DNA from: Luteitalea sp. TBR-22
Lineage (GTDB): Bacteria > Acidobacteriota > Vicinamibacteria > Vicinamibacterales > Vicinamibacteraceae
Length of the DNA stretch: 64,000 bases
Reading direction: 5' to 3'
Assembly (NCBI RefSeq): GCF_016865485.1
Contig: NZ_AP024452.1
Span: 4,300,501-4,364,500, forward strand
A program made the translations under genes and the position numbers. Below are positions 3,481 to 19,865 of this stretch, one piece after another. Numbering within the stretch: the stretch's first letter is position 1; each line of letters starts with the position of its first letter. A model generated the notes under the pieces. That model saw nothing but the letters and a program-made list of their open reading frames with translations, had not been told where the DNA came from and searched no databases.

Positions 3481-4242
3481 CTACTGCGCGGCTGCCTCCG
3501 GACGCAAGTCGGTGTGCACCTTGGTTCGCCAGCTGCGGGGGCCGCACTTGAGCACGTGGGCGTGGTGCAGCAGGCGATCGAGCAGCGCCGTGACGGCGGC
3601 GGTGTCGCCGAGCAGCTTGCCCCAGTCATCGACCGGCCGATTGGACGTCAGCAGCGTCGAGGCGCGTTCGTAGCGCCGCATGATCACCTCGAGCAGGTCC
3701 TCGGCGGCCGTGTGCGGTAGCTTGCGCATGCCGAGGTCGTCGATGATCAGCAGCGGCACGGTGGTCAGCTCCAGCATCAGCGCTTTGCGCGTCCCTTCCA
3801 CGCTGGCCTCGGTGATCTCCTCGAGCAGGATGTGCGCTTCGCGATACAGCACGCGATAGCCCTGCAGGATGGCCGCACGCCCGATGGCCTGCGCGAGATG
3901 GCTCTTGCCGGTGCCGGGCGGGCCGAGGAGCAGCACGTCTTCTCGCTGCGCCACGAAGCGCGCGGTGGCGAGCTCGTGGATCAGCGCCTGCGGCATCTTC
4001 CGGTTGAAGCCAAAGTCAAAGGTGTCGAGGGTCCGCTCGGCATCACGAAAGCCGGCCTGCTGCAGCCGGCGTGCGAGGAGCCGGTCCTGGCGGCGCAGCA
4101 GCTCGTCGCCGACCAGCGCCGAGAGCAGATCGATCGGGGCCTGGCGTTCCTGCTGCGCCTGGCGCAGGCGGGCCTCGAGGACATCGGCCATCCCGGAGAG
4201 GCGCAGCTTGCGCAGGGCGGCATCGAGTTCGGGCAGCGTCAT
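3481..4242 (-). CDS. istB: IS21 transposition helper ATPase IstB
   Basis: The protein is 253 aa, normal for IstB. It is an AAA+ ATPase of the DnaA/DnaC type that assists the IstA transposase in target selection and strand transfer. Walker A GPPGTGKS is at about residues 107-114 and Walker B LLIIDDLG at about 164-171, followed by the expected ERASTLLTSN sensor region. The start codon overlaps the istA stop in ATGA, typical of the translationally coupled pair. A longer frame running upstream to 5208 is only a shadow of istA. All key ATPase motifs are present, so the gene appears functional. Confidence 0.95.
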   Translation of the reverse strand: MTLPELDAALRKLRLSGMADVLEARLRQAQQERQAPIDLLSALVGDELLRRQDRLLARRLQQAGFRDAERTLDTFDFGFNRKMPQALIHELATARFVAQREDVLLLGPPGTGKSHLAQAIGRAAILQGYRVLYREAHILLEEITEASVEGTRKALMLELTTVPLLIIDDLGMRKLPHTAAEDLLEVIMRRYERASTLLTSNRPVDDWGKLLGDTAAVTALLDRLLHHAHVLKCGPRSWRTKVHTDLRPEAAAQ

Positions 4243-5789
4243 GTGGGATCTCCTGTGGTGCGATCGATCAGATCGCGATAGACGGTCAGTTGACGGATCA
4301 GCGGGTCGACCTGCCGCAGCGTGAGCGGCGGCCGTCGCTCCAGGTAGCGGCGGAGGAAGCGGTAATTGAGGACGCGCAGCTCGAGCGCCGCCTTGGCCGC
4401 GTCCTCGAGGGCGATCGGGCCGTAGCGCTTCGCGAGGGCGAGCGCGCCGAGGATGCGGCGTGTGCCGGCCGCGCCGTCGTGCGTGTGGATGTGCGTGCAC
4501 AGCGTGTGCAGCGCGGGACCGATCCGGCGGGCGCGCGCCAGGAGCGCGAGCGTCGTCGCCGGCGTCTTGGCGGGCCGGTCCGCCTCCGCGATGCGGTGAT
4601 GCCCCCGCGGCCCACGCACATGCTCGCGCAGCAGTTGGCCGTCGAGCGTGAGCAGGCGCACGACCCCATCGGTCCACTGCACCTGGACACGCTGGCCGAT
4701 CCAGCCGGGCGGCGCCGAGTAGTAGGCGGCCTCGACCTCGACGCAGCCATCGAGATGCACGGTGCGCGTGCCGTACCGGTAATAGCGAAACGGCGTGACG
4801 GGAAGCGCCTGCAGCACGGGCTGCTCCTCGGCAAACATCGCGGCCACCTGCCGCTTCGTCGTGCCGTGGATGCGGGTGTCCGCCCAGTGGGCCGTCCAGC
4901 GATCGAGGTAGGCCTGCGCGTCCTCGAGGGACTCGAAGCGCTGCCCCTTGAGCGGCGTCTGCTTCGCGTGGCCGACGCTGCGTTCGACCTTGCCCTTGCG
5001 ATCGGGATCGCGCACGCGACACGGCAGCGCCGTGACGCCGTAGTGCGCGAGCACATCGCGATAGAGCGGATTGATCGTCGGGTCGTAGACGTCCGGCGTC
5101 AGCACGCCTTCGCGCAGGTTGTCGAGGACCAGCACGCGCGGGGCGCCGCCCAGCTGACGAAGCGCCTGCTCGTGCAGCGTGGCCCAGATCGCCGCGCTCG
5201 ACTGCCACGTGAGGAGGTAGACGGCCTTACGCGAGTAGCCGAGCGTCAGCACAAACAGGCGTGTGCGCCGGTGTTTGCCCCCGCCCGGCGGCCGCACCAT
5301 CGGCCCCTCGCCGTAATCGACCTGGGCCTCCTCGCCCGGCGCGGTGACGATCACCACGCGCGCCTCCGGCGTCGCGGCACCACGCAGCCGGCCGACGAAG
5401 CGCCGGACGCTCGCGTAGCCGGCCGTGAAGCCGTGGTCGTCGACCAGGTCCTGCCAGATCGCGCGGGCGTTCCGCCCGCGACCGACCGCCTCGGTGATCA
5501 GGTCGCGGTACGGCGTGCAGGCGCTCGCACTCGAGGCGCGGGACGGTGTGGGGTCGGTGGACACCCCCGTCGGCGAAATGGCCGGATTTGCCGCCGCTTC
5601 GCTCGGCGGCGCGGGCGCGTCGGCCCGCGGCCGCCCGCGGCCCCGCACGGCGACACCGGCGGCCCGGAGATAGCCGCTGATGGTCTCGCGGCGCACGCCG
5701 GTCGCCTGCTCGATGCGGCGCAGCGACCAGCCCAGGCGCCCCAGCGCCACCACCTGCTGCTGTTTTTGTGGGTCCAAGACGTTCCCCAT
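4239..5789 (-). CDS. istA: IS21 DDE transposase IstA
   Basis: From the ATG at 5789 this is a 516-aa transposase catalysing cut and joining of the IS21 ends. An N-terminal HTH (RIEQATGVRRETISGYL) lies at about residues 26-42. The rve-type integrase core carries Asp158 in QVDYGEG, Asp223 in VLDNLREG and Glu269 in KGKVERS, a complete DDE triad, followed by the beta-barrel-like C-terminal part. A GTG at 5828 would add 13 residues; the ATG is preferred because MGNVL followed by a KQ-rich helix is, as I recall, the usual start of close homologues. The ribosome site is weak for either. An 18-bp stretch near 5576-5590 resembles the element's own ends. Confidence 0.92.
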   Translation of the reverse strand: MGNVLDPQKQQQVVALGRLGWSLRRIEQATGVRRETISGYLRAAGVAVRGRGRPRADAPAPPSEAAANPAISPTGVSTDPTPSRASSASACTPYRDLITEAVGRGRNARAIWQDLVDDHGFTAGYASVRRFVGRLRGAATPEARVVIVTAPGEEAQVDYGEGPMVRPPGGGKHRRTRLFVLTLGYSRKAVYLLTWQSSAAIWATLHEQALRQLGGAPRVLVLDNLREGVLTPDVYDPTINPLYRDVLAHYGVTALPCRVRDPDRKGKVERSVGHAKQTPLKGQRFESLEDAQAYLDRWTAHWADTRIHGTTKRQVAAMFAEEQPVLQALPVTPFRYYRYGTRTVHLDGCVEVEAAYYSAPPGWIGQRVQVQWTDGVVRLLTLDGQLLREHVRGPRGHHRIAEADRPAKTPATTLALLARARRIGPALHTLCTHIHTHDGAAGTRRILGALALAKRYGPIALEDAAKAALELRVLNYRFLRRYLERRPPLTLRQVDPLIRQLTVYRDLIDRTTGDPT

Positions 5790-5848
5790 GGCGCTCACGG
5801 ACGCACAGGGCGTCCGGGCGCGGTTCACGTCTCGGCGCCGGCCTCAGG

Positions 5849-5902
5849 AAATGGCCGGTTTTGAGGTGTCGCTAAATGGCCGGATTTGGGTGTTCACCGA
5901 GG
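5849..5902. repeat. Right end of the IS21 element (istA side)
   Basis: Two copies of AAATGGCCGG followed by TTTTGAG or ATTTGGG lie at 5849-5865 and 5874-5890, then the tip ending at 5902. Read inwards the tip is CCTCGGTGAAC, inverted relative to the left end. The disrupted lipoprotein frame reads into this end and stops at 5872. Confidence 0.8.
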
Positions 5903-6588
5903 ACGATGGACAATGTTTCGTTGGCGGTGCCGCTGAAGCTCAGATCGGCGTAGCCGCCCTCGCCGTTGCATTCGAACTGCTCCAACGAGAAGGCCACGTT
6001 CCTGTTAGCGGCCACGCCACCCGGAGGCGTGAAGATGGCCAGCAACGAGTGGCGGCACCCGGCGTTATCACTCCACGAGCCTCTCATCGTGTACCTGTTG
6101 TTGCTGGTGCTCTGGATGCTGTCGATCCTCAGGTCGAATGAACTTATGGGCCGTGGGCGGATCGTGGGGAGCGTCGTATGCCCAGACATCGTGCCGACCC
6201 ATTGGCCAACCAGGGAGCCGACGCTGACCTGCGAGGAGCCGACCGCTGAGTTTGCCCCCGCGGTGGCCTGCACGCTCACCGTGTAGTTGCCCGGCGAACC
6301 GTAGGGATGGCTCGCCTGGGGTTGCGTGGACACCGAGGAAGTTCCGTCGCCGAAGTTCCAGGTGAACTGCGTCCCTGAAGGGAATGTGCCCTGAGCTGTG
6401 AACTGGAAGGCCGTGAAGAACTGGACGCCTGTGCCGGACGGCTGCACCTGAACACCGTGAACTGCAACAGAGGCGACCGAGGTCGGCGATGTGGGCGTAC
6501 CTGATTCACTACTCCCGCCGCAGGCGGCGGTAAGCATGCACAGGAGTCCAAGGGCCAGGGCTATGGCGGCGTTCGAAGACTTGCTCAT
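5903..6588 (-). pseudogene. PKD-domain lipoprotein, 5' part, interrupted by the IS21 element
   Basis: The frame starts at the ATG at 6588 with a good GAGGAGAG ribosome site and encodes a lipoprotein signal with lipobox LTAAC (Cys at about residue 22). A PKD-like domain with the NFGDGTSS motif spans about residues 45-125, followed by a lipocalin-like beta domain of unknown function. The IS insertion lies after codon 228; the current frame runs 10 residues into the element end and stops at 5872, replacing the native last 18 residues. The product may still be exported and partly folded. An upstream extension to 6666 lacks a ribosome site and a signal peptide, so I reject it. Confidence 0.88.
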
Positions 6589-7806: not shown

Positions 7807-9201
7807 TCAGTGCACGCCGACGGCAACACCGGTACGCGTCGCACTGGATCCCGTCAACTGCCGCAGCCGACCTCTCCACGCCGTCGCGCGCTCGGGCGCC
7901 TCGTCTCGGTCGAACGCGGCGAGAATCCCGTACGACTTGCGCAGCCTATCGCCTGCCTCGTCCCGATCCGATCGTGACGGACGATCGAGGATCTGCTCGA
8001 TCTGTGGCGCCGCCGCGAGTAGCGCCGACCTCAGGCCGAGGCGGTCGCCCTCGTCGTTGATGGCGAGCGTGCACAGCGAGTCGCACACGCTGCGGCTGCG
8101 CTCCTCCCACTCAGGATGGCCAGGCTGGCTCCCAAGGAGGCCCTCGACCAGCGGCAATGCCTCGAACAACCAACCGGCGGTGCGTTGCGGGGCCGACTCC
8201 TGGTTCGCGCGCGATGCGGCGTACAGGGCTAGCACGATCGCGGCCTTGACGGCTGGCTCGGATTCGGCGCCCGGGAGTTCCTGCAGCGCGCGCGCCTGAT
8301 CCAGCGCCTTCTGCCACCAGCCGGTGGCATCCGTGCCGTGCTCCAGCCGCTCGTGCAGCGACAGCCATGCACAGGTCTGCAGCAACGAGACGCGATAGCG
8401 AGCCGACTCGGGCGCCTCGGCGACGATGGACTCCTGCAGGCGCACGCTCTCGACGTGGAGTGCCAGGGCGCGTGCCGGGTCGGTGCGGACGTCCAGGCGC
8501 CCGAGATCCTCGAGGGTGACGGCAAGGGAATGCCGGCGACGCAGATCGCCTGGCGCCGACGCCGCCAGCGCCGACGCGAGTTCGTGGGCGCGCGTGTACA
8601 GGACTCGCGCACGCGCCGCGTCGTGCGGCTTCACGGCATGCGCGAGCCTCGACGACACGTTGACCAGCCACTCGCGGTAGCGCTCGACCTCCGGCGCCCG
8701 CGCCGCTTCGCGCTCGGCGATGGCGAGCGCTCGCTCGTAATGCGCGACCTCTCGTCCCGGATGATGATCGGCCGTGTACTCGCCGAGCAGCACATGCACG
8801 TGAATGACCGCGCCGCGCTCGTCAACGCTGGCCGCGTGGTCCGTCTCGACGAGGTCGGCAATCGGGGCGAGCGCCGCGAGCAGTTCGCTCGCGCGACGAC
8901 TCAGCGTCCCCGACGTCATGGTCGCCGGCACGACGACGTTCGCACCCAGGCGGAAGAGCATCCGCCGCGCGTCCGCCGGCCATTCAGTCGCCACCGCTGC
9001 CCACAACCGACGCCATCGCTGCACGAGGACCGGACCGAGGTCCGCGTCAGACGACGCGGCAAGCCAGGCACGCCATTCGGCGCGCAGCGGCTTGATGGCT
9101 TCCTGATCGGTCATCGCCGACAACCGCGCCAGGAGCGCGGGCGCGTCCGTGAGCGCGTCCAACGCCGCGTTGTGCTGCCCCGCCTGAAGGCCCGCGTCCA
9201 T
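7807..9201 (-). CDS. TPR-like helical protein, partner of the membrane HTH regulator
   Basis: The protein is 464 aa from the ATG at 9201 (a GTG three codons upstream is also possible). It is almost wholly alpha-helical, rich in Ala, Leu and Arg, and has repeated pairs of amphipathic helices such as ARARVLYTRAHEL and ARALALHVESVRL that resemble degenerate tetratricopeptide repeats. No signal peptide or membrane segment is seen, so it should be cytoplasmic. It starts 17 bp after the stop of the HTH protein gene, implying one transcript and a shared role. I do not recognise an enzymatic domain; protein-protein interaction is the likely job. Confidence 0.75.
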   Translation of the reverse strand: MDAGLQAGQHNAALDALTDAPALLARLSAMTDQEAIKPLRAEWRAWLAASSDADLGPVLVQRWRRLWAAVATEWPADARRMLFRLGANVVVPATMTSGTLSRRASELLAALAPIADLVETDHAASVDERGAVIHVHVLLGEYTADHHPGREVAHYERALAIAEREAARAPEVERYREWLVNVSSRLAHAVKPHDAARARVLYTRAHELASALAASAPGDLRRRHSLAVTLEDLGRLDVRTDPARALALHVESVRLQESIVAEAPESARYRVSLLQTCAWLSLHERLEHGTDATGWWQKALDQARALQELPGAESEPAVKAAIVLALYAASRANQESAPQRTAGWLFEALPLVEGLLGSQPGHPEWEERSRSVCDSLCTLAINDEGDRLGLRSALLAAAPQIEQILDRPSRSDRDEAGDRLRKSYGILAAFDRDEAPERATAWRGRLRQLTGSSATRTGVAVGVH

Positions 9202-9218
9202 CGCCGTCACACTGAGCG

Positions 9219-10799
9219 CTATTTCTGGTTCGACGCCATCTCGGCGACCGCTTGTCGGCCGGCGCCGGACGAGACCGCGTAACTGCCCCACCCACCCGCC
9301 GCCGTCCACTCGCGGATCTCGTACGGCCCCTTGCGCTCCGGGCAATCGCGCGGCATGTGCTTCACCGCGAACCGGCTCGCGCCCTCGTGCTCGTGCCAGT
9401 ACATGTCGGTGAGCAGGAACTCGGAGATGCGTCCGTCGACGCCGAGGTAGCCGACGGCGTGGCCGTAGTTGTCCTCCCACAGCAGATCGGCGCCATTGGT
9501 TCGAAGGCGGCTGATCAGTCGGTAGGGCAGGCCCATCGCCCCCGTCATCTCCAGCGACGGCAGCAAGTGCACCCGATCGGGCACCTGCCCGTCCATCCGG
9601 CACTGGAACTCCGGCGCCGACGCCTTCACCACGGTCGGTGGTCCCTGCAGGTCGACGACCGTGAGCGACGCCCGCGCGTGCTCGTTGAGCACCCCACCCG
9701 CCACGAGCCGAGGGCCCGCCGGCGTGTCGAGTTCCCCCAGCGAGAGCACCCATCCCGACTGGAACAAGCGCGTGCGGCTCTGCCCCGCGGGGTCGATCTC
9801 GATGACGAAGCTGGGCCACCAGAGGCTGTCGACATACGACGCCCACACGCGCTTCGGTCCGGGGCCGCGCGACACCGCGACCGCGCGCAGCTCCCAGGGC
9901 CCACGGAACGTCCGGTCGCCGCACTGCACCGAGAACTCCGGCGCCACCGACCACCGCAGCCGCCCATCCTCGCCAAAGGCCATCAGGCGATCGGTCGATG
10001 CGGGGATACGCCCGTCGCCGGAGCGCACAGGCACCAGGAACTCGGAGGTGCCATCGCCATCGATGTCCTCGAGCGCGACGCTGTCGGTGTTCGCGCCGTC
10101 TTCGCCCGTGGGCGGCCTGTCCTGCGTGGAGCGCACGGAGTGCCCCACGTCGTGACGCCACACGAGGCGGCCGGCACGGTCGTGGCCTTCGATGACTCGC
10201 CCCTCGATGTGCACGGTCGTGGCGGTCGCCCCCGACGCGGAGCCAGCGCCGCGACCAATCAGCACGCCAACGAGCAGCGCCGCGGCCGTCGCCCCCAGCC
10301 AGACGTACTCGCGCCACTTCGGGCGAGCGGCCGCGGCCGCAACCGGGGCCACGGCCTCGCTGACGACGGTCGGCCCCGCGGGCATGACCGCGGGCAGTCC
10401 CGCGTGCGGCCCCTCCTCCACCACGGCACGCGCTGCGATCGACGGCGCTTCGGGTACCGACACGGGTTCAGTGACGTCGCTCGCGACGCCAGACACGATG
10501 GCAGGCGGCGCGTCAGGACCGGGTGTCGGGGTACCGGTGTCGGGGCCGTCTGTCGGCGCCGCCGATGTCCCGAGTTCTCGCTGGACTTCCGAGCGCTCGA
10601 GCCACTCTCCGAGTTCGGCGCGGTAGGCGTAGACCACCTGCCCGTTGCGCGTCTTGAGGCGGTGGACGGGGAGGCACAACTCGTTCTCCCACCGCTGCAC
10701 GGAGCGCACGCTGCGCCCCAGGTAGTCGGCGATTTCCTTCCAGCCGTTGAGGCGGCCCGCTGCTTCCATCGACTCGCGTGTCATCGGGGCGTCACCCAT
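9219..10799 (-). CDS. Membrane-anchored HTH regulator with extracytoplasmic sensor-like domain
   Basis: The 526-aa protein has a distinctive order. Residues about 19-60 form an HTH (WKEIADYLGRSVRSVQRWE, then a PVHRL wing-like strand), close to the MerR/excisionase-like HTH often fused to TPRs in Acidobacteriota. A Pro/Ala/Thr-rich linker covers about 78-158, a single transmembrane helix about 166-184, and the C-terminal 340 residues look like an FG-GAP or beta-propeller domain (EDIDGDGTSEFLVPV near 240). This predicts a ToxR-like one-component regulator that binds DNA inside and senses something outside. ATG at 10799 is used; a second ATG five codons on is possible. It is divergent from the regulator at 10951. 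Confidence 0.82.
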   Translation of the reverse strand: MGDAPMTRESMEAAGRLNGWKEIADYLGRSVRSVQRWENELCLPVHRLKTRNGQVVYAYRAELGEWLERSEVQRELGTSAAPTDGPDTGTPTPGPDAPPAIVSGVASDVTEPVSVPEAPSIAARAVVEEGPHAGLPAVMPAGPTVVSEAVAPVAAAAARPKWREYVWLGATAAALLVGVLIGRGAGSASGATATTVHIEGRVIEGHDRAGRLVWRHDVGHSVRSTQDRPPTGEDGANTDSVALEDIDGDGTSEFLVPVRSGDGRIPASTDRLMAFGEDGRLRWSVAPEFSVQCGDRTFRGPWELRAVAVSRGPGPKRVWASYVDSLWWPSFVIEIDPAGQSRTRLFQSGWVLSLGELDTPAGPRLVAGGVLNEHARASLTVVDLQGPPTVVKASAPEFQCRMDGQVPDRVHLLPSLEMTGAMGLPYRLISRLRTNGADLLWEDNYGHAVGYLGVDGRISEFLLTDMYWHEHEGASRFAVKHMPRDCPERKGPYEIREWTAAGGWGSYAVSSGAGRQAVAEMASNQK

Positions 10800-10950
10800 G
10801 GGTATGGATGAGGCACGTTACACCAGTGAGGGGCCGTGTCGAGTCCCAGAAATTGACACAATTGACAATGTGGCAGCATTGCTCACAAAGGCATTTTTTG
10901 CCCAATGGATTCGCGGGCGCGTGCGCCGTCCTCGTGACTAGAATCGGCGC
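10800..10950. promoter_or_regulatory. Divergent promoter region with paired AATTGACA repeats
   Basis: This 151-bp region separates two divergent regulators. It is markedly AT-richer than its surroundings and holds two direct copies of AATTGACA at 10851-10858 and 10860-10867, 9 bp apart. Each copy contains a TTGACA that could serve as a -35 box for the rightward gene, or the pair could be an operator for either regulator. A T-run (GCATTTTTTG) lies at 10891-10900. Exact start points cannot be fixed by eye. Confidence 0.45.
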
Positions 10951-12321
10951 GTGATCCTCCAGTTGCGCGGCCGCCGGCCCGCCACATCGACGGGCGTCTC
11001 TGCGCGGCTCGACGTCGGAGCCTCGACACTGACCTGCGGCCGCGAGACTGCACACCTGCCGTTGCGCGCCACGGCGTTGCTCGCCTTGCTCGCCGTCCGC
11101 CGACTCGACGCCGATCGCACCTCCCCCGAGAGTGGCTGGGTGACGCTCTCCGACATCTCGGGGCTGCACGAGTGGCATGGCGGCCAGTCCACCGCCAGCC
11201 TCGCGTCGCAGGTGCGTCGGGAGGTGAAGCGGATCCACCTCGCCTGCCCCGGCATCGTCGAGGCGCCCTGTCGCAGCCAGCTGCGGGGGCCGTTCCGTCT
11301 CGCGGCGCGGCCCACGATCGATACCGAGACGGCAAGGGCGCTGGCGAGACGCTTCGAGGTCGCCAATGCAACGCGCACTGCGTCGAGCGCAGAAGATGTC
11401 TACGGATGGATGGAGTCCGCCGAGCCCGTGTGGCGGACGATGCACTACCACGACAAGCCTGGTGAGGCGCTGTCCAACGTACCGCCGGTGGACGCCGTGC
11501 CGGCCTCCGATCCATTGCTGACGGCGATGGCCCTGCTGCTCACGGCGAAGCGGTTGCGCGACACGGGCGCCCTCGACCTCGCCGAGCGGACCGCGCACGA
11601 GGCCGAGGAAGCCGCCGCGAACATCCCGCCGCCGATCGTCCATTCGCTGCGCGGGCAGGCGACGCTGCAGCGCGCGTGGGTGGCTTATCGCCGCGGCCAC
11701 CTCGACGACGCGGAGCGCCTCGTGAGCACGGTGATGGCGACGGCCAGCGACTTCGGGTTCCTTCGGCTCCAGGGGCAGGCGCTCAACCTGCGCTCGCTGA
11801 TCTGGCGCACGCGCGGCATGTATCCGGACTCCCTGCGCGACCTCCTGCATGCGGCCCGCCTGTTCGTGGTGGAGGGCGACCTGCAGCACCTGTTCGCCGT
11901 GTACCACAACCTCGCGTGCGTGGTGTCGGTGGAAGCGATGGCCGAGACGGACGACAGTCGTCGGCGCGCCCGCCTGCGCGTGGCCCTGGCCTACTCGCAG
12001 CGGCACGAGTCGTACTGTCATCGGTACGCCATCGGCAGGAACAGCGTGCTGAACAAGCTGCTCCAGATCGGCCTGCTCAGGCAGCTCGGCGAGCGCGACG
12101 CGGCGCTGCGCCTGGCCGACGACGCCGAAGCCGTGGCGCTGGAGTCGCAGAACTTCCCCGATGCGCAGACGGCGCATCGTCACCGGCTGGCCATCTTGCT
12201 GGAGTCCTCGCGTCGCGACGAGGCCGCGGCGGTTCACGCGGAGACCCTCGGCGCGATCGAAAGCCCTGCGGTGCGACGACAGTTCGCGCGGATCTACCGC
12301 GAGGAGCGCGCGCGGGTGTGA
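10951..12321 (+). CDS. Winged-helix regulator with TPR-like C-terminal domain
   Basis: The 456-aa protein starts at a GTG; no strong ribosome site is visible. Residues about 30-120 resemble an OmpR/SARP-type winged helix: a helix LPLRATALLALLAV, a recognition-like helix SLASQVRREVKRIH and a closing hairpin ending GPFRLAA. The rest is helical, with repeated units such as ALDLAERTAHEAEEA and HLDDAERLVSTVM that look like tetratricopeptide repeats. There is no signal peptide or membrane segment. It resembles SARP/MalT-like one-component activators in architecture, but lacks an obvious NTPase. Its divergence from the membrane HTH gene suggests they regulate each other or a common target. Confidence 0.72.
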   Translation: MILQLRGRRPATSTGVSARLDVGASTLTCGRETAHLPLRATALLALLAVRRLDADRTSPESGWVTLSDISGLHEWHGGQSTASLASQVRREVKRIHLACPGIVEAPCRSQLRGPFRLAARPTIDTETARALARRFEVANATRTASSAEDVYGWMESAEPVWRTMHYHDKPGEALSNVPPVDAVPASDPLLTAMALLLTAKRLRDTGALDLAERTAHEAEEAAANIPPPIVHSLRGQATLQRAWVAYRRGHLDDAERLVSTVMATASDFGFLRLQGQALNLRSLIWRTRGMYPDSLRDLLHAARLFVVEGDLQHLFAVYHNLACVVSVEAMAETDDSRRRARLRVALAYSQRHESYCHRYAIGRNSVLNKLLQIGLLRQLGERDAALRLADDAEAVALESQNFPDAQTAHRHRLAILLESSRRDEAAAVHAETLGAIESPAVRRQFARIYREERARV

Positions 12322-12814
12322 ACGGACGGACCAACGCAACGATTCGACATGTGGGACTGCGGCGAGCAGCGCCGGTCGCCCGCAGCGCTGCGGCGACGCC
12401 CGCGGGCCGGTCCACCGCGCCGTGTCCCCTCAACTCCGCCGAAGACGCGGAGGCACGCGTACCGCGGAAACAGCAGCACCCGCAAGTATCCAGTTTTCAA
12501 GGAGTTGACGCAATCGTTGCGAGCGACGGCTGCTGCCAGGTGCAGCAGCCAGGCCGCGGTGGGGCAGATCGAGGATCCCGCGCGCGTTTCCTCAGTCAAG
12601 CCTGACGCGAGCGCCCCCGGGCATTCTGACTCCACCGGACCGCACGCGCGCACGCTGACATGCGGGAGACCGCGTGATGCCGCGGCGTCAGACGCGCTCG
12701 CTGGCCTCGTCACCCCCGCAACGCCGTCAGCTACGCTATCGCGTACACCGCATGGCGATCCGCCACGGCGGGCGCCTGGTAGCGCGCCTGGCCTCGACGC
12801 TCGGGGAGGAATCG
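12322..12814. other. 493-bp stretch with no supported gene
   Basis: No frame here has convincing composition, start or motif; those present are shadows in GC-rich sequence. The part around 12490-12530 (a TTTTCAAGGAG stretch followed by TTGACG) is AT-richer than the rest and may hold the promoter of the small membrane protein gene at 12815. I see no RNA gene. Confidence 0.4.
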
Positions 12815-13213
12815 ATGTCCACCAACCGCCACACCTACATCGCCGCCGCCGCGATTCTCTGGAACCTGATCGGCCTGATCATCTTCGTGCTGCGCGTGAC
12901 CATCGGTCCCGAGCAGGTCGCCGCCCTCGCCCCGGCCGACCGTGCCGTGTTCGACGCCACGCCCGCGTGGCTGCTCGTCGTCTTCGGCGTGGCCACGGTC
13001 ACCGGCGTCATCGGCGCAGTGGGTCTCTGGCGTCGCGCCCCGTGGGCAGGGCCGGTGCTCGGACTGTCGCTGGCCGCCGTGCTCGTGCAGATGGTCGGCA
13101 TGTATGCGGCGACGCCGGCCTGGCAGGCGTCGGGACCCGCGGGGCTCGTGCTGCCCGCCGTGATCATCGCCTTGGGGGCGGCGCAGTGGCGATACGCCTC
13201 CACACGCGCCTGA
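12815..13213 (+). CDS. Small four-helix integral membrane protein
   Basis: The 132-aa protein starts at an ATG with a strong GGGGAGGA ribosome site 6 bp upstream, which rules out a longer version from 12674. Four hydrophobic segments lie at about residues 8-28, 50-70, 77-97 and 107-125, with a loop of charged and polar residues after the first. Length and layout resemble small uncharacterised sugar-transporter-like or DoxX-like membrane proteins, but I see no diagnostic motif. It stands alone on its strand, 125 bp before the DUF1080 gene. Confidence 0.75.
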   Translation: MSTNRHTYIAAAAILWNLIGLIIFVLRVTIGPEQVAALAPADRAVFDATPAWLLVVFGVATVTGVIGAVGLWRRAPWAGPVLGLSLAAVLVQMVGMYAATPAWQASGPAGLVLPAVIIALGAAQWRYASTRA

Positions 13214-13337: not shown

Positions 13338-14168
13338 ATGCTGACTCGTGTCCTCCCCTCCGCCGCGCTCGCGCTGCTGATGGCCGTGCCCGCGGCCGCG
13401 CAAGCGCCTGACGTCATCCACCTGTTCGACGGCAAGCAGTTCACCGAGCACTTCTACTCGTGGCTGGTCGACGACCATCTCGCCGATCCCGATCGCGTCT
13501 TCACGGTGGTCGACAACGTGGACGGCGCGCCCGCCATCCGCATCAGCGGCCAGAAGTGGGGCGGCATCACCACCCGGAAGGAGTACGAGACCTACCACCT
13601 GGTCGTCGAGTTCCGCTGGGGCAACCTCACCTGGGGCAACCGCAAGGACCGCGCCCGTGACAGCGGCGTCCTCGTGCACGCGCAAGGACGCGACGGCAAC
13701 ACCGGCAAGGACTTCAACGGCCCGTGGATGCACTCGATCGAGGCACAAATCATCGAGGGCGGGGTCGGCGACTTCATCCTGGTGGCCGGCACGGCGGAGG
13801 ATGGCTCGAAGCTCGTGCCGCGGATGACCGCCACGACGCTGCGCGACCGCACCGGCGAGCTGTACTACGACCCGAACGGCGTGGCGATGGAACACTCGTC
13901 GGGGCAGCGCATCAACTGGTGGGGCCGCGACGCCGACTGGGCCGACAAGCTCGGGTTCGTCGGCGTGGCCGATGTCGAGGGCCACGGCAGCGAGTGGACG
14001 CGCCTCGAGGTGATCGTCGAGAAGGACCGCATCACCAACATCGTCAACGGCCGCGTCGTCAACGTCGGCACCAGGCCGAGCCTCTCGAAGGGCAAGATCA
14101 TGATCCAGTCGGAGGGCGCGGAACTGTACGTGCGCCGCGTCGACCTGTACCCCGTCGCGAAGAGATAG
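13338..14168 (+). CDS. Exported DUF1080 (3-keto-disaccharide hydrolase-like) protein
   Basis: A 276-aa protein with a signal peptide (residues 1-21, cleavage near AAAQA). The mature part begins with the LFDGKQFTEHF motif typical of DUF1080 and has the concanavalin-like beta-sandwich pattern expected of this family, including VVEFRWGN, DSGVLVHAQG, MHSIEAQIIEGG and the closing strand ELYVRRVDLYPV. Family members act on glycans outside the cytoplasm, some as 3-keto-glycoside hydrolases; the substrate here is unknown. It is convergent with the MFS gene, with only 35 bp between their stops. Confidence 0.88.
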   Translation: MLTRVLPSAALALLMAVPAAAQAPDVIHLFDGKQFTEHFYSWLVDDHLADPDRVFTVVDNVDGAPAIRISGQKWGGITTRKEYETYHLVVEFRWGNLTWGNRKDRARDSGVLVHAQGRDGNTGKDFNGPWMHSIEAQIIEGGVGDFILVAGTAEDGSKLVPRMTATTLRDRTGELYYDPNGVAMEHSSGQRINWWGRDADWADKLGFVGVADVEGHGSEWTRLEVIVEKDRITNIVNGRVVNVGTRPSLSKGKIMIQSEGAELYVRRVDLYPVAKR

Positions 14169-15373: not shown

Positions 15374-15392
15374 CGGGATCAGTATCGGGGAT

Positions 15393-15427
15393 CGGGCACC
15401 GGGCACCGGGCACCGGGCACCGGGCGG
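15393..15427. repeat. Heptamer tandem repeat (CGGGCAC)n
   Basis: Four exact units of CGGGCAC (15393-15420) and one degenerate unit fill the space between the TonB receptor stop and the MFS start. It is one of several 7-bp repeats of different sequence in this window's spacers. Confidence 0.85.
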
Positions 15428-15432
15428 CACTT

Positions 15433-17643
15433 TCAGCGACGGCCTGCTCGCAAGGCCACACCTACCTGCACCGACGCGCCGGGCATCGGGTAGCCGGGGC
15501 GGTAGGCGTACGTCGTGTCGAACAGGTTCTCGACGGCCACGAACAGGTCGGCCCGGCCACCGCTGCGTGGCAGCGTGACCGACGGGCGTGCGTTGACCAC
15601 CGTGAACCCGTCCACCTGCTGGGGGTTGACCGCCGTCGCCGTGCGCGCACGGGCGAGCACCGTCATCGCCGACTGGTGCTGCACGTCCACGGCGAGCTGG
15701 AGGGGACCGAACCGCCCGGTGAGCGCCGCGACGATCGAGCGCTCGGGCAGGTACGGCAACGACGGAATCGACGCATCGAGCAGCGTGCCTCCCACGAACG
15801 CCCGCCAGCCGGCGCCGAGGTCCTGCTGGACCGAGACGTCGAGGCCGCGCACCGTGTGGGCGCCGAGATTGAGGAACGTCGGCCGCGCCACGCGCGGCGG
15901 AAAGGCGAAGACGTACCGCCTGGCGTACTCGTCGTGGAAGACGGCGGCATCCACGCTCGTGCCGCGGCGCGGGGTGAGCGCCACGCCCACCTCGACGTGA
16001 TCGACCTGCTCGGCCTCGAGTTGGCGCCACGACTGGCCGAGCGGCGGAATCAGCCCGGAGAGCGCCACGACCTCCTGCCCCGGATACGACAGCCCGCGCG
16101 CGTAGCTGACGCGTGCCGCCAGCACGCCACCGGCGCGCACGACGAGGCCGGCGTGCGGACTGGCGGCCGACGGAAACACCGAGTGGTCGTAGACTCGCAC
16201 GCCTGCCGACGGCTGGATCGACCACGTCCCTCCGATCGGCACGACGCGGTCGGCCGCGACGTGTGGCCCGACGATGGTCAGCGTGTCGCCCTCGAAGCGC
16301 GAGGGCGGCACCGGCGGCACCGTGTCGTAGCGCACGTCGCCGTCGATGCGGTCGACGTCGAGGCCGGCCGACACGTGCACGCCGGCCCACGCCAGCACCT
16401 CCTCGCGCCAGCGCACGCCCGAGAGCGCGAACCGGGTGAACGTGTCGCCGTCGGGCGGCGGCTGGCCGCGCCAGTTCCCCTCACCGCGGTTGGCGTAGGC
16501 CTGCAGGCTTCCGTTGACGCTGGCCCCGACGTGCGCGAGCGACAGCGTCGCGAGCGTCCCGCTGGTGCCGAAGCGCCCTGCCCTCGTGTCGGGCTGACCA
16601 ACCACTCCCGGATCCGAGGCGTCGTTGTCGGCCGCCAGCGCCGTCGCGGCGACGGTCCATCCCGGCGCAATCCGCCAGCCGAGCCGCACGAACAGATTGG
16701 CCAGCCGGCCGTCGGCGGCGGGGCGATGACCGTCGGACCGCGCGAAACCCTGCGCCACGGCGAAGTCCCACGCCCCGGCTCGACCGCTGACCTCGGCCTG
16801 CTGCACCACGGTGGAGAAGCTGCCGGCGCTGGCGCGCAGCGATGCGCCCACGCCCTCGCCGCGCGCCCGCCGCGTCGAGAGGTCGATCGCGGCAAACGCA
16901 TTGCCGAACGCCTCGGGCTGCGGCCCCTTGTGCACCTGCACGGCATCGAGGCTGCTCACCGGCAGCAGGTCCAGCAGCGGATGCCCCCAGATGCCCATGT
17001 AGAACGGCACCCCGTCGACGTAGGTCTTGAGCTCGCTGCCGGGACGGCTCATGCCCGTGCCCCGCACGAACACCGCACCGCCCGACTCGCCGCCGAAGGC
17101 CCCCACCGGGTTGAACCGCGAGATGGTGACGCCCGGCGTCCTGCGCAACGCCGAGGCCAGGTCGACGGCGTTCAACTGCTCGACCTGCAGGTCGGTGACG
17201 ACGGTGCGGCTGGCGCCGAAGGAATCGACCGTCGTCGCATCGACGACGAGCGGGCTGACCGACACCTGTTCCTCCCACCGTTCGAGGGCGAGCACGACCC
17301 GCATCGGCGCGTCGTCGGCCGGGACGGCGAGGCGGCTCGGCTCGAAGCGCGGTCGCTCGATGCGGACCTCGGCCGGCGACGCGGCGGCGTCCACGCGCAG
17401 CGTGAAACGGCCCTCGCCGTCGGTGGACGTGGAGGCCACCGTCGCGCCCGCCGTCGTCACGACCGTCACCGTGGCGGCAGGCACGCTGCGTCCCGCGGGA
17501 TCGAGCACGGTGCCCGACAGCACGCGGGACTGCGCACGCAGGCCGACGCTCGCTGCCGCGACCAGCGCGAGCACCATCGTCAGGGCCCGCAGGCCGCGAG
17601 GCACACGTGCGGCGCCGATACATCGCAAGTTCGTCAATCTCAT
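15433..17643 (-). CDS. TonB-dependent outer membrane receptor
   Basis: The 736-aa protein has a signal peptide (about residues 1-38, ending GLRAQS), a carboxypeptidase-regulatory-like beta domain at about 41-115 (LSGTVLDPAGRSVPAATVTV), a plug domain at about 130-250 (LASALRRTPGVTISRFN, then VFVRGTGMSRPG and YVDGVPFYMG), and a C-terminal 22-strand-type barrel with VENLFDTTYAYRPGYPMPG near the end. It should import a bulky ligand through the outer membrane using TonB energy. No TonB box is obvious and I saw no cobalamin riboswitch in the 165-bp leader. The final residue is Arg rather than the usual aromatic one. Confidence 0.92.
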   Translation of the reverse strand: MRLTNLRCIGAARVPRGLRALTMVLALVAAASVGLRAQSRVLSGTVLDPAGRSVPAATVTVVTTAGATVASTSTDGEGRFTLRVDAAASPAEVRIERPRFEPSRLAVPADDAPMRVVLALERWEEQVSVSPLVVDATTVDSFGASRTVVTDLQVEQLNAVDLASALRRTPGVTISRFNPVGAFGGESGGAVFVRGTGMSRPGSELKTYVDGVPFYMGIWGHPLLDLLPVSSLDAVQVHKGPQPEAFGNAFAAIDLSTRRARGEGVGASLRASAGSFSTVVQQAEVSGRAGAWDFAVAQGFARSDGHRPAADGRLANLFVRLGWRIAPGWTVAATALAADNDASDPGVVGQPDTRAGRFGTSGTLATLSLAHVGASVNGSLQAYANRGEGNWRGQPPPDGDTFTRFALSGVRWREEVLAWAGVHVSAGLDVDRIDGDVRYDTVPPVPPSRFEGDTLTIVGPHVAADRVVPIGGTWSIQPSAGVRVYDHSVFPSAASPHAGLVVRAGGVLAARVSYARGLSYPGQEVVALSGLIPPLGQSWRQLEAEQVDHVEVGVALTPRRGTSVDAAVFHDEYARRYVFAFPPRVARPTFLNLGAHTVRGLDVSVQQDLGAGWRAFVGGTLLDASIPSLPYLPERSIVAALTGRFGPLQLAVDVQHQSAMTVLARARTATAVNPQQVDGFTVVNARPSVTLPRSGGRADLFVAVENLFDTTYAYRPGYPMPGASVQVGVALRAGRR

Positions 17644-17808
17644 CTGGAAGTGTGCGCCGGCTGGTGCGGACCGCGGGGCGAACCAGACGATTCTATCCGC
17701 TGGTGCGCACCCGGCGCGCCGGCGCGCCTCGATGGCGACGGGTTCGCGCGCCCGGACGGGCGAACCGGCACGGCCCGGATGCGTATCTCATGAGTCTAGG
17801 AGGTTCCG

Positions 17809-18240
17809 GTGCCCATCCGCTGGACACACACGATCGACGACATCGACTGGCACGAACTGGAAGCGCTGTATCGGGCCGCACCGCTCGGCAACAAGAACGC
17901 CGACGACCTGCGCGTGGCGTATGCCAACAGCCGCTATCGCTGCTTTGCATGGGAGGACGGCCGCCTGGTCGGGGCGGGGCGCGCGCTCGCCGACGGCGTG
18001 GACTGCTCCTACGTGTGCGACGTGGCCGTGCTGCCCAGCCACCAGGGCACCGGGGTCGGCAAGGCCATCGTCCAGCAGCTGGTCGACCTGTCGCGCGGCC
18101 ACCGGAAGATCATCCTGTACGCGGTGCCCGGCAAGGAGGCGTTCTACCGGCGCTTCGGCTTCCTCAGGATGCGCACGGCCATGGCCATCTTCCCGGATCA
18201 GGCCAAGGCGATCGCCGACGGGTACGTCAGCGAGGACTGA
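17809..18240 (+). CDS. GNAT-family N-acetyltransferase
   Basis: The 143-aa protein starts at a GTG preceded by AGGAGG 5 bp upstream. It has the GNAT fold signature: strand DVAVLPSHQ followed by the acetyl-CoA pyrophosphate loop QGTGVG (residues 79-84) and helix KAIVQQLVDLS, then the typical late motif AFYRRFGF. It transfers an acetyl group from acetyl-CoA to an amine; the substrate is unknown. It is convergent with the oxidoreductase gene, whose stop lies 5 bp away. Confidence 0.9.
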   Translation: MPIRWTHTIDDIDWHELEALYRAAPLGNKNADDLRVAYANSRYRCFAWEDGRLVGAGRALADGVDCSYVCDVAVLPSHQGTGVGKAIVQQLVDLSRGHRKIILYAVPGKEAFYRRFGFLRMRTAMAIFPDQAKAIADGYVSED

Positions 18241-18244
18241 CGCA

Positions 18245-19405
18245 TCACGGGGCGGACATCATGACCACGACCTTGCCGCGAGCCCGTCCCTGCTCGAGAT
18301 AGCGGATCGCCTCGGCCGCCTGCGCGAACGGCAGCGTCCGGTCGATCTGCGTGCGCAGCGTCCCATCCGAGAGCCATCGTGCGACGAGGTCGAGGTCGGC
18401 CGCGTTGGCCTTCGTGACGAAGAAGGTCATCGTCGACGACCCGACCCGGGATCGCAGCATCATCGCGAGCACCCGCGGCAGCGGGCCGAGCCACACCGCG
18501 TCGTGGGGCGTGCCGCCGCCGATGCCGACGTAGCGTCCGCCCTCCGCCAGGACGCCGCGGATGGCCCCGAGGGCGTGGTTGCCGACGGTGTCGAAGATCA
18601 CGTCGTACCTGTCGGGCAGGCGCGTCACGTCGGCGCGGGTGTAGTCGATGACGCGTTGCGCCCCGAGGCCCTTCACCATCGCGACGTTGCGCGTGCTGCA
18701 CACGCCGGTGACGGTGGCGCCCAGCTGCCGTGCAATCTGCACGGCGAAGGTCCCGACCCCACCCGACGCCCCGTTCACCAGGACCTGCTGCCCGCGCCGT
18801 ACCTGCCCGTGGTCGCGCAAGCCCTGCAGGGCCGTGATGGCGGCCAGGGGCGCCGCCGCGGCGGCCTCGAAGGACACCCCGTCCGGCTTGCGCACGACAC
18901 GCGTCGTCGGCACCACCACGTACTCGGCGAGCGCCCCGTTTCGCATGCCGAACACCGCATCGCCGACGGCAAGGCTGTGCACGCCTGGACCGACGGCCGC
19001 GACGATGCCGGCAAAGTCGACGCCGACACGGATGTCGGAGGGCTTGCGCAGCCCGGTCGACAGCCGCATCACGCGCGGCACGCCGCGCATCTGGTGCCAG
19101 TCGACAGGGTTGACCGACGCCGCGCGCACCCGCACGAGCACCTCGCCCGGGCCGGGCGACGGGCGCGCGATCCGCGCCATTCGGAGCACGTCCGGGCCGC
19201 CGTACTCGCACTGCACGAGGGCGGCCATCGGCGTCGGTCCGGTCGGCAGTGGTCCCTGGTCGCAGACGTTGCCCGACCGCACGTACGCGACCGTGAAGGC
19301 AACGCCGAGCACCACGAGCGCGGCGCTCACTCCCCAGCGAAGCACGCGCCCGACGCGGCTCCGCCAGGCTCCCCGATCGACCCGCCCCTTCGTCATGACT
19401 CTCAT
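18245..19405 (-). CDS. Membrane-anchored MDR-family zinc-free alcohol dehydrogenase/quinone oxidoreductase
   Basis: From the ATG at 19405 the protein is 386 aa. After a charged start, residues about 18-40 form a transmembrane helix (VSAALVVLGVAFTVAY), an unusual addition. The rest is a medium-chain reductase: GroES-like part with PGPGEVLVRVRAASVNPVDW, Rossmann part with NGASGGVGTFAVQIARQLGA (the NADPH-binding AxGGVG), and a substrate-domain end. It lacks the Cys/His zinc ligands of classical alcohol dehydrogenases, matching the quinone reductase/reticulon-4-interacting group. Frames extending to 19675 have no ribosome site and low-quality composition. An ATG three codons further in is an alternative start. 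Confidence 0.87.
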   Translation of the reverse strand: MRVMTKGRVDRGAWRSRVGRVLRWGVSAALVVLGVAFTVAYVRSGNVCDQGPLPTGPTPMAALVQCEYGGPDVLRMARIARPSPGPGEVLVRVRAASVNPVDWHQMRGVPRVMRLSTGLRKPSDIRVGVDFAGIVAAVGPGVHSLAVGDAVFGMRNGALAEYVVVPTTRVVRKPDGVSFEAAAAAPLAAITALQGLRDHGQVRRGQQVLVNGASGGVGTFAVQIARQLGATVTGVCSTRNVAMVKGLGAQRVIDYTRADVTRLPDRYDVIFDTVGNHALGAIRGVLAEGGRYVGIGGGTPHDAVWLGPLPRVLAMMLRSRVGSSTMTFFVTKANAADLDLVARWLSDGTLRTQIDRTLPFAQAAEAIRYLEQGRARGKVVVMMSAP

Positions 19406-19640
19406 GGGACGGCCGCCGAGGGCCAGCGGTTCAGCGCCAGCGGGCGAGCAGGTGTGATGAACCCGGAAGCCGGAGCTGGAAGCCGGGGTCCGGCGAGCCC
19501 GTGACTGGCGCGGCATCGCCGCACTGTTCGGCCCGGCGCCAGCCGGCCGACTTACCGGATTTCCGGCGTGACTATCAGAATCGTCTGACAGACGCCGGAG
19601 AGTCGGCGGTGCTACCGTGGGCGATCGGAGAGGCTCGCCC

Positions 19641-19865
19641 ATGCCCAGTCGCACGGCCGTCGAAGGCGTGCTCACGCGCGTCCGGCCCTACCTCGCTGCC
19701 GACGGTGGCGACATCCAGCTGGTGGAGCTGGCGGGCGACGAGGTGCGCATACGGCTGGTCGGTGCGTGCGCCGACTGTCCCACCTCCCACATGACCCTCC
19801 ACGTCGGCATCGAGCGGGCGCTGCGCCGCCTCGACCCGGGCCTGCGCCTCGTCCAGGTGGCGTGA
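19641..19865 (+). CDS. NifU-like C-terminal-domain iron-sulfur scaffold protein
   Basis: A 74-aa protein with the NifU C-terminal domain only: ADGGDIQLVEL at residues 20-30 and the cluster-binding CADC motif at Cys43 and Cys46. Such stand-alone domains (Nfu-type) carry or transfer [4Fe-4S] clusters. The ATG at 19641 follows GGAGAGG; a GTG at 19617 would add eight residues without a better site. One base separates its stop from the sigma-54 activator start, so the two are almost certainly one transcript, an uncommon pairing. Confidence 0.9.
   Translation: MPSRTAVEGVLTRVRPYLAADGGDIQLVELAGDEVRIRLVGACADCPTSHMTLHVGIERALRRLDPGLRLVQVA

Follow-up and report, generated by a model that had tools for sequence, protein, structure and literature searches.

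A putative membrane-anchored helix-turn-helix protein with a propeller-like outer domain in Luteitalea sp. TBR-22, probably of an unnamed type of transmembrane one-component regulator

The window analysed here is a stretch of 64,000 nucleotides from Luteitalea sp. TBR-22 (contig NZ_AP024452.1, positions 4,300,501 to 4,364,500 of the forward strand). At the locus under study, open reading frame and gene calling placed two divergent genes, 9219-10799 on the minus strand and 10951-12321 on the plus strand, on either side of a 151-bp gap, with a third gene following the first in the same direction. The features of this locus are listed below with the basis of each in brackets, together with two insertion-sequence gene pairs from its surroundings, and a kinase that carries the same outer domain.

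9219-10799, minus strand: putative membrane-anchored helix-turn-helix (HTH) and propeller-like sensor protein, 526 aa (open reading frame and gene call, well coded; family members elsewhere)
10575-10760, minus strand: N-terminal HTH, about residues 14-75, MerR- or phage Nu1-like (Pfam HTH_23, HTH_17 and Phage_Nu1 across the family; PDB profile matches; invariant residues)
10311-10574, minus strand: proline-rich linker, about residues 76-163 (19% proline from residue 86 to the helix)
10254-10310, minus strand: single predicted transmembrane helix, residues 164-182 (hydropathy peak 1.68; three lysines or arginines before it, one after)
9255-10217, minus strand: putative outer domain of FG-GAP/PQQ type, propeller-like, about residues 195-515 (profile matches to solved propellers, FG-GAP_3, alignment)
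7807-9210, minus strand: downstream gene, 464-467 aa, TPR-like, starting at GTG 9210 or ATG 9201 and ending at 7807 (coding score, hydropathy)
10800-10950: divergent intergenic region, 151 bp, 55.6% GC (composition)
10851-10867, plus strand: direct repeat of AATTGACA, two copies 9 bp apart start to start, the pair reading AATTGACAcAATTGACA (exact match)
10951-12321, plus strand: divergent gene, 456 aa, with an N-terminal part (1-184) without an assigned domain and a predicted TPR superhelix (185-456) (coding score, AlphaFold2 single-sequence model, Foldseek)
3481-5828, minus strand: IS21-type pair, IstB at 3481-4242 and an IstA-like integrase at 4239-5828 (Pfam IstB_IS21 E 2.9e-63, rve E 1.1e-9, Mu-transpos_C_2)
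L116:10360-12587, equivalent to window about -9141 to -6914: second, different IS21-type pair in the same interval
L148:3221-5269: Ser/Thr kinase with the FG-GAP outer domain of the window regulator's family

The original prediction had given the 526-aa protein an HTH, a proline-rich linker, a transmembrane helix and an FG-GAP-like outer domain, and each of these was borne out. Scanned alone against Pfam, the protein matched HTH_23 (E 0.004), FG-GAP_3 (E 0.011) and HTH_17 (E 0.047), all under the curated cut-offs, and singly scanned family members matched HTH_23 in 10/14 cases, HTH_17 in 8/14, with E-values down to 1.2e-5, FG-GAP_3 in 7/14 and Phage_Nu1 in 5/14 (E<=0.1). The HTH, weak in the single protein, is conserved in 14 aligned relatives, with L17, W20, K21, I23, R36, W37, P44, V56 and W66 invariant. 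MerR_1 reached E 0.1 in the window protein, under its cut-off, and was found in 1/14 members; HTH_17 and Phage_Nu1 fit the relatives better. NCBIfam models returned nothing for the three proteins of the locus except RacA at E 0.2. A role as a defence island gene was rejected, as the MAD1-type HTH matches (PADLOC E 0.0012; NCBIfam E 0.00043 in 1/14 family members) reflect a shared small HTH only, and neither neighbour had a PADLOC match at E<=1.

Against the PDB, the HTH part of the family profile came closest to phage terminase small subunits and the chromosome-anchoring RacA (E 0.005 to 0.41). These relatives would suit an HTH that, instead of regulating transcription, holds a chromosome or plasmid at the membrane in the manner of RacA, or binds DNA in that of a terminase; this is highly improbable, as the HTH and helix bear several sensor-like domains (WD40-like, TPR and FG-GAP) in paralogous families, which signalling fits better.

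The outer domain has invariant G279, P301, W302, C400 and P414 in the 14 aligned members, and a motif resembling a calcium site, D245-x-D-x-D249-G, in the alignment. The family profile reached solved beta-propellers (the designed Scone and Cake propellers, YesW lyase and PQQ proteins) with E-values down to 9.9e-10, these matches spanning part of the outer domain only. The single-sequence structure model of the protein was poor (mean pLDDT 37.5) and was set aside; therefore the propeller assignment rests on the family-profile matches over part of the domain. At residue 400, many relatives have a C-x-x-C of which the window protein retains the first cysteine only, and with the second it may have lost a redox or metal site.

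By hydropathy scan, the protein has one hydrophobic segment, at residues 164-182, taken as the helix. The proline-rich linker that joins it to the HTH is about 90 residues in length, exceeding the linkers of aligned relatives. Across the family, lysine and arginine within 15 residues of the helix were more numerous before it than after it in 15/22 members, with 5 ties and 2 reversed. In L148, a Ser/Thr kinase (Pkinase E 1.1e-43) is followed by one helix and then by the family outer domain (E 1e-43); a kinase needs ATP, and hence the cytoplasm, placing the outer domain of this fusion outside. L147 also has the family outer domain after a helix, its N-terminal part being without a Pfam match. 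From the charge bias and the kinase fusion, we infer a cytoplasmic HTH and a periplasmic C-terminal domain. The claim that 9219-10799 specifies a membrane-bound DNA-binding sensor is strengthened by the conserved architecture and the kinase fusion elsewhere, and the gene very probably encodes a membrane protein with a propeller-like sensor outside and a DNA-binding HTH inside.

The divergent gene had been described as encoding a regulator with a winged helix and TPR-like repeats, of which only the repeats were retained. In the AlphaFold2 single-sequence model, residues 185-456 are mostly above pLDDT 70, with a low-confidence dip at 291-310, and Foldseek returned 61 PDB matches at E<=0.001, headed by LGN TPR and including LapB and MalT domain III, such that this part is predicted to form a TPR superhelix. 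The winged helix was rejected as an established feature, though a diverged one may be present: residues 1-184 lie below pLDDT 50, the protein has no Pfam family at E<=10 and only chance-level matches in a PDB sequence search, and its score of 0.7 bits against a profile of 29 OmpR-type domains from the same genome was beaten by dozens of 500 shuffles and decoys. To the eye, residues 35 to about 120 show winged-helix-like spacing that ends in RGPFRL; no test supports a winged helix. The protein had no match in 39 other near genomes or in the plasmid search; 395 other genomes of the phylum yielded a single TPR/CHAT protein as a weak match (E 3.8e-4), and a contig scan found one 64-residue piece at 28% identity in an adenylate cyclase-TPR protein. 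By these sequence comparisons, the gene is an orphan.

The helical partner predicted to follow the membrane gene is present as a TPR-like gene starting 8 or 17 bp past the stop of 9219-10799, but the pairing is local and not conserved. No transmembrane segment was seen in its product by hydropathy, a PDB sequence search gave chance-level matches only, and there was no match in 39 other near genomes; among 391 other genomes of the phylum, weak matches occurred in 5. Of the six matched frames, four were scanned, and all 4 were kinase-TPR proteins. As judged from these searches, it too is an orphan, with its few weak matches mostly to kinase-linked TPR proteins. It is probably co-transcribed with 9219-10799, and its product could be an adaptor.

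Between the divergent genes, the paired AATTGACA repeats in an AT-rich island were confirmed as originally noted. Two exact copies occur in the window against 0.23 expected, a number reached in 2/100 shuffles, and, with up to 2 mismatches allowed, AATTGACAcAATTGACA is the sole match to the pair in the 6.47-Mb genome (reversed control 0). Among 60-mers of the window, the one that holds the pair has the lowest GC, and among 40-mers it ties for the lowest. TTGACA is the sigma-70 -35 consensus. A scan for promoters and terminators found none, with no sigma-70-like promoter in 10800-10950. With the AATTGACA pair as the only motif looked for, no conserved upstream DNA motif was found in relatives: the pair was absent upstream of 19 of them, the best matches having 6-9 mismatches of 16 and being no better than shuffles (each reached by at least 6/50). 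Judged by sequence, the pair may be an operator or promoter element.

The wider surroundings appear to be peculiar to this strain. The 3-keto-disaccharide hydrolase gene at 13338-14168 is separated by about 24.3 kb from an upstream paralogue that ends near window -10928; the distance between the two in congener G001 is 1.2 kb. Genes between them had no match (blastp E<=1e-6) among the called genes of the corresponding stretches of G001 and G004, the two of four congeners compared, and by this comparison the interval of about 24 kb that contains the locus is strain-specific. Two IS21-type gene pairs lie within the interval. Adjoining one of them, 5830-5903 contains 73 bases repeated elsewhere in the same genome and in congeners at 92-100% identity, and is probably an IS21 end. 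In the island, the genes at L116:12781-16827 and 17111-19849 encode large proteins of secreted type that bear FG-GAP_2/BACON and fn3 domains, and Pfam also identified a PKD domain among the island's secreted-type proteins; the products of these two genes are possible targets of the regulator. The short GC-rich sequence at 15385-15425 is a REP-like intergenic repeat, with dozens of copies among the matches listed from the same genome and congeners, some in short arrays. No tRNA was found in scans of the window and of L116, nor any Rfam match in 9000-13000.

The original prediction joined the three genes and the repeat pair into a self-contained envelope-sensing system. In such a cassette, the AATTGACA pair would be contested by the membrane regulator and the product of the divergent TPR gene, with the TPR protein encoded downstream as a partner. 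The divergent layout, the tight downstream spacing, and the unique pair at the most AT-rich spot of the window all speak for such a cassette. However, firstly, no relative of either neighbour was found (E<=0.01) among the called genes of 30 family loci, several of which end at contig ends; this sample comprised 18 of the 37 non-self places matching the helix and outer part, plus 12 from the phylum profile search. Secondly, both neighbours are orphans in the relatives searched. Thirdly, no winged helix was detected in the divergent protein. Fourthly, the pair was found in 0/19 upstream regions. Fifthly, the locus is in a strain-specific interval with IS21 elements. A conserved three-gene cassette was rejected, the preset synteny check having failed in all 30 loci, and a self-contained cassette at this locus is very unlikely.

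The membrane protein itself, in contrast to its neighbours, has many relatives. Matches to the full protein were found in 18/40 near genomes, its own included, several via the HTH only; the helix and outer part matched in 26/193 genomes of the class, again with its own included (E<=1e-8); and the family profile matched in 114/396 Acidobacteriota genomes (E<=1e-10), many through the HTH and linker only, a lower bound in that at most four candidates were scored per genome. Among the matches listed, 44 places, including the window's own, span the profile from position 10 or lower to 402 or higher. A second HTH copy was not found in the same genome at E<=0.01, and congener G001 has four matches to the family. 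Other C-terminal domains follow the HTH and helix in all five of the further proteins scanned with Pfam, being PD40 repeats in 3 (L114, L019 and L017) and TPR repeats in 2 (L016 and L031). Sequence comparison thus indicates that modules are swapped, the outer domain being attached to an HTH in some proteins and to a kinase in another, and the HTH with its helix to WD40-like, TPR or FG-GAP domains. The family is apparently coherent in Acidobacteriota, widespread and unnamed; among the papers listed by a literature search, with subscription journals largely outside its coverage, none dealt with it. We read 9219-10799 as a likely transmembrane one-component regulator whose type is real, probably unnamed, and marked by the swapping of modules. 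In 5/18 loci (L065, L067, L073, L075 and L078), a gene for an outer-membrane barrel or CarboxypepD_reg protein occurs within two genes of a family member; this is a raw count, in which neighbours were Pfam-scanned in 7/18 loci only, and L065 and L067 are of one genus with the same layout.

This arrangement invites comparison with ToxR and CadC, and the protein had been called ToxR-like, which holds for the mode of action but not for the family. It shares with them one helix and, probably, an N-terminal cytoplasmic DNA-binding part and a periplasmic sensor, whereas its HTH is MerR/Nu1-like, not OmpR-type, and its sensor of FG-GAP/PQQ type; nor was a ToxS-like membrane partner seen downstream. 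Membership of the ToxR family was rejected, as Trans_reg_C was absent (Pfam, E<=1), and the protein scored 0.1 bits against a profile of 29 Trans_reg_C domains from the same genome, which themselves score 53-101 bits against Pfam. The broader class of transmembrane transcription regulators (TTRs), as surveyed by Demey et al. 2023 (PMC10269533), combines a DNA-binding domain with at least one transmembrane region in a single-pass, one-component protein, and 9219-10799 specifies both a conserved HTH and a predicted transmembrane region (164-182). The survey describes Acidobacteriae as relatively rich in TTRs, which were detected with Pfam domain models; the window protein, scoring under the Pfam cut-offs, may therefore have been missed. 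The words FG-GAP, propeller and HTH_17 are absent from the main text of the survey (PMC10269533). Membrane receptor Ser/Thr kinases with a beta-propeller outer domain (e.g. PDB 7dxn/7eq5, by title) have the same type of outer domain behind one helix, although the output here is an HTH rather than a kinase; L148 is exactly such a kinase within the family. The HTH-PD40 and HTH-TPR membrane proteins of Acidobacteriota share the HTH and transmembrane module, and differ in their C-terminal domains.

The reading we hold to be likely is that of a single-pass one-component regulator, with the HTH inside, the propeller-like sensor in the periplasm, and a signal passing across the helix to the HTH. The MerR/Nu1-like HTH would bind DNA in the cytoplasm while on its flexible proline-rich tether, one helix would cross the inner membrane, and the periplasmic FG-GAP/PQQ-type domain would sense a ligand. 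Ligand binding, or an oligomeric change outside, would be transmitted across the helix to alter how the HTH binds DNA or dimerises. The regulator would probably be autoregulatory, acting on the divergent promoter region at 10800-10950, and might act on the island genes for secreted proteins as well; DNA binding, signal direction and targets are here all inferred. A membrane-tethered HTH must reach its DNA site from the membrane unless it is released, and signal-triggered proteolysis might free it as a transcription factor, to which the long linker would be suited. This is unlikely, as neither a protease gene nor a cleavage motif was identified, and action while membrane-tethered is established for ToxR/CadC-type proteins (PMC10269533, PMC5430869).

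For the locus itself, the tempting three-gene story is corrected: the neighbours are strain-specific, and form no conserved system with 9219-10799. For the phylum, there is perhaps an even chance that Acidobacteriota have a phylum-wide, undescribed repertoire of regulators tethered to the membrane, with interchangeable modules. In it, one MerR/Nu1-like HTH and helix would be joined to different outer domains (FG-GAP/PQQ propeller, WD40-like PD40 and TPR), and one FG-GAP outer domain would be common to DNA-binding and protein-kinase outputs, the window protein being one member. Membrane-tethered transcription factors are known mostly from the ToxR/CadC type, and the way in which they reach their DNA sites is still being worked out. 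Natural swaps for studying how one sensor drives two outputs would be provided by a large family that joins another DNA-binding domain to a sensor also present on receptor kinases. In such a repertoire, the same kind of outside signal could be read straight into transcription, or into phosphorylation.
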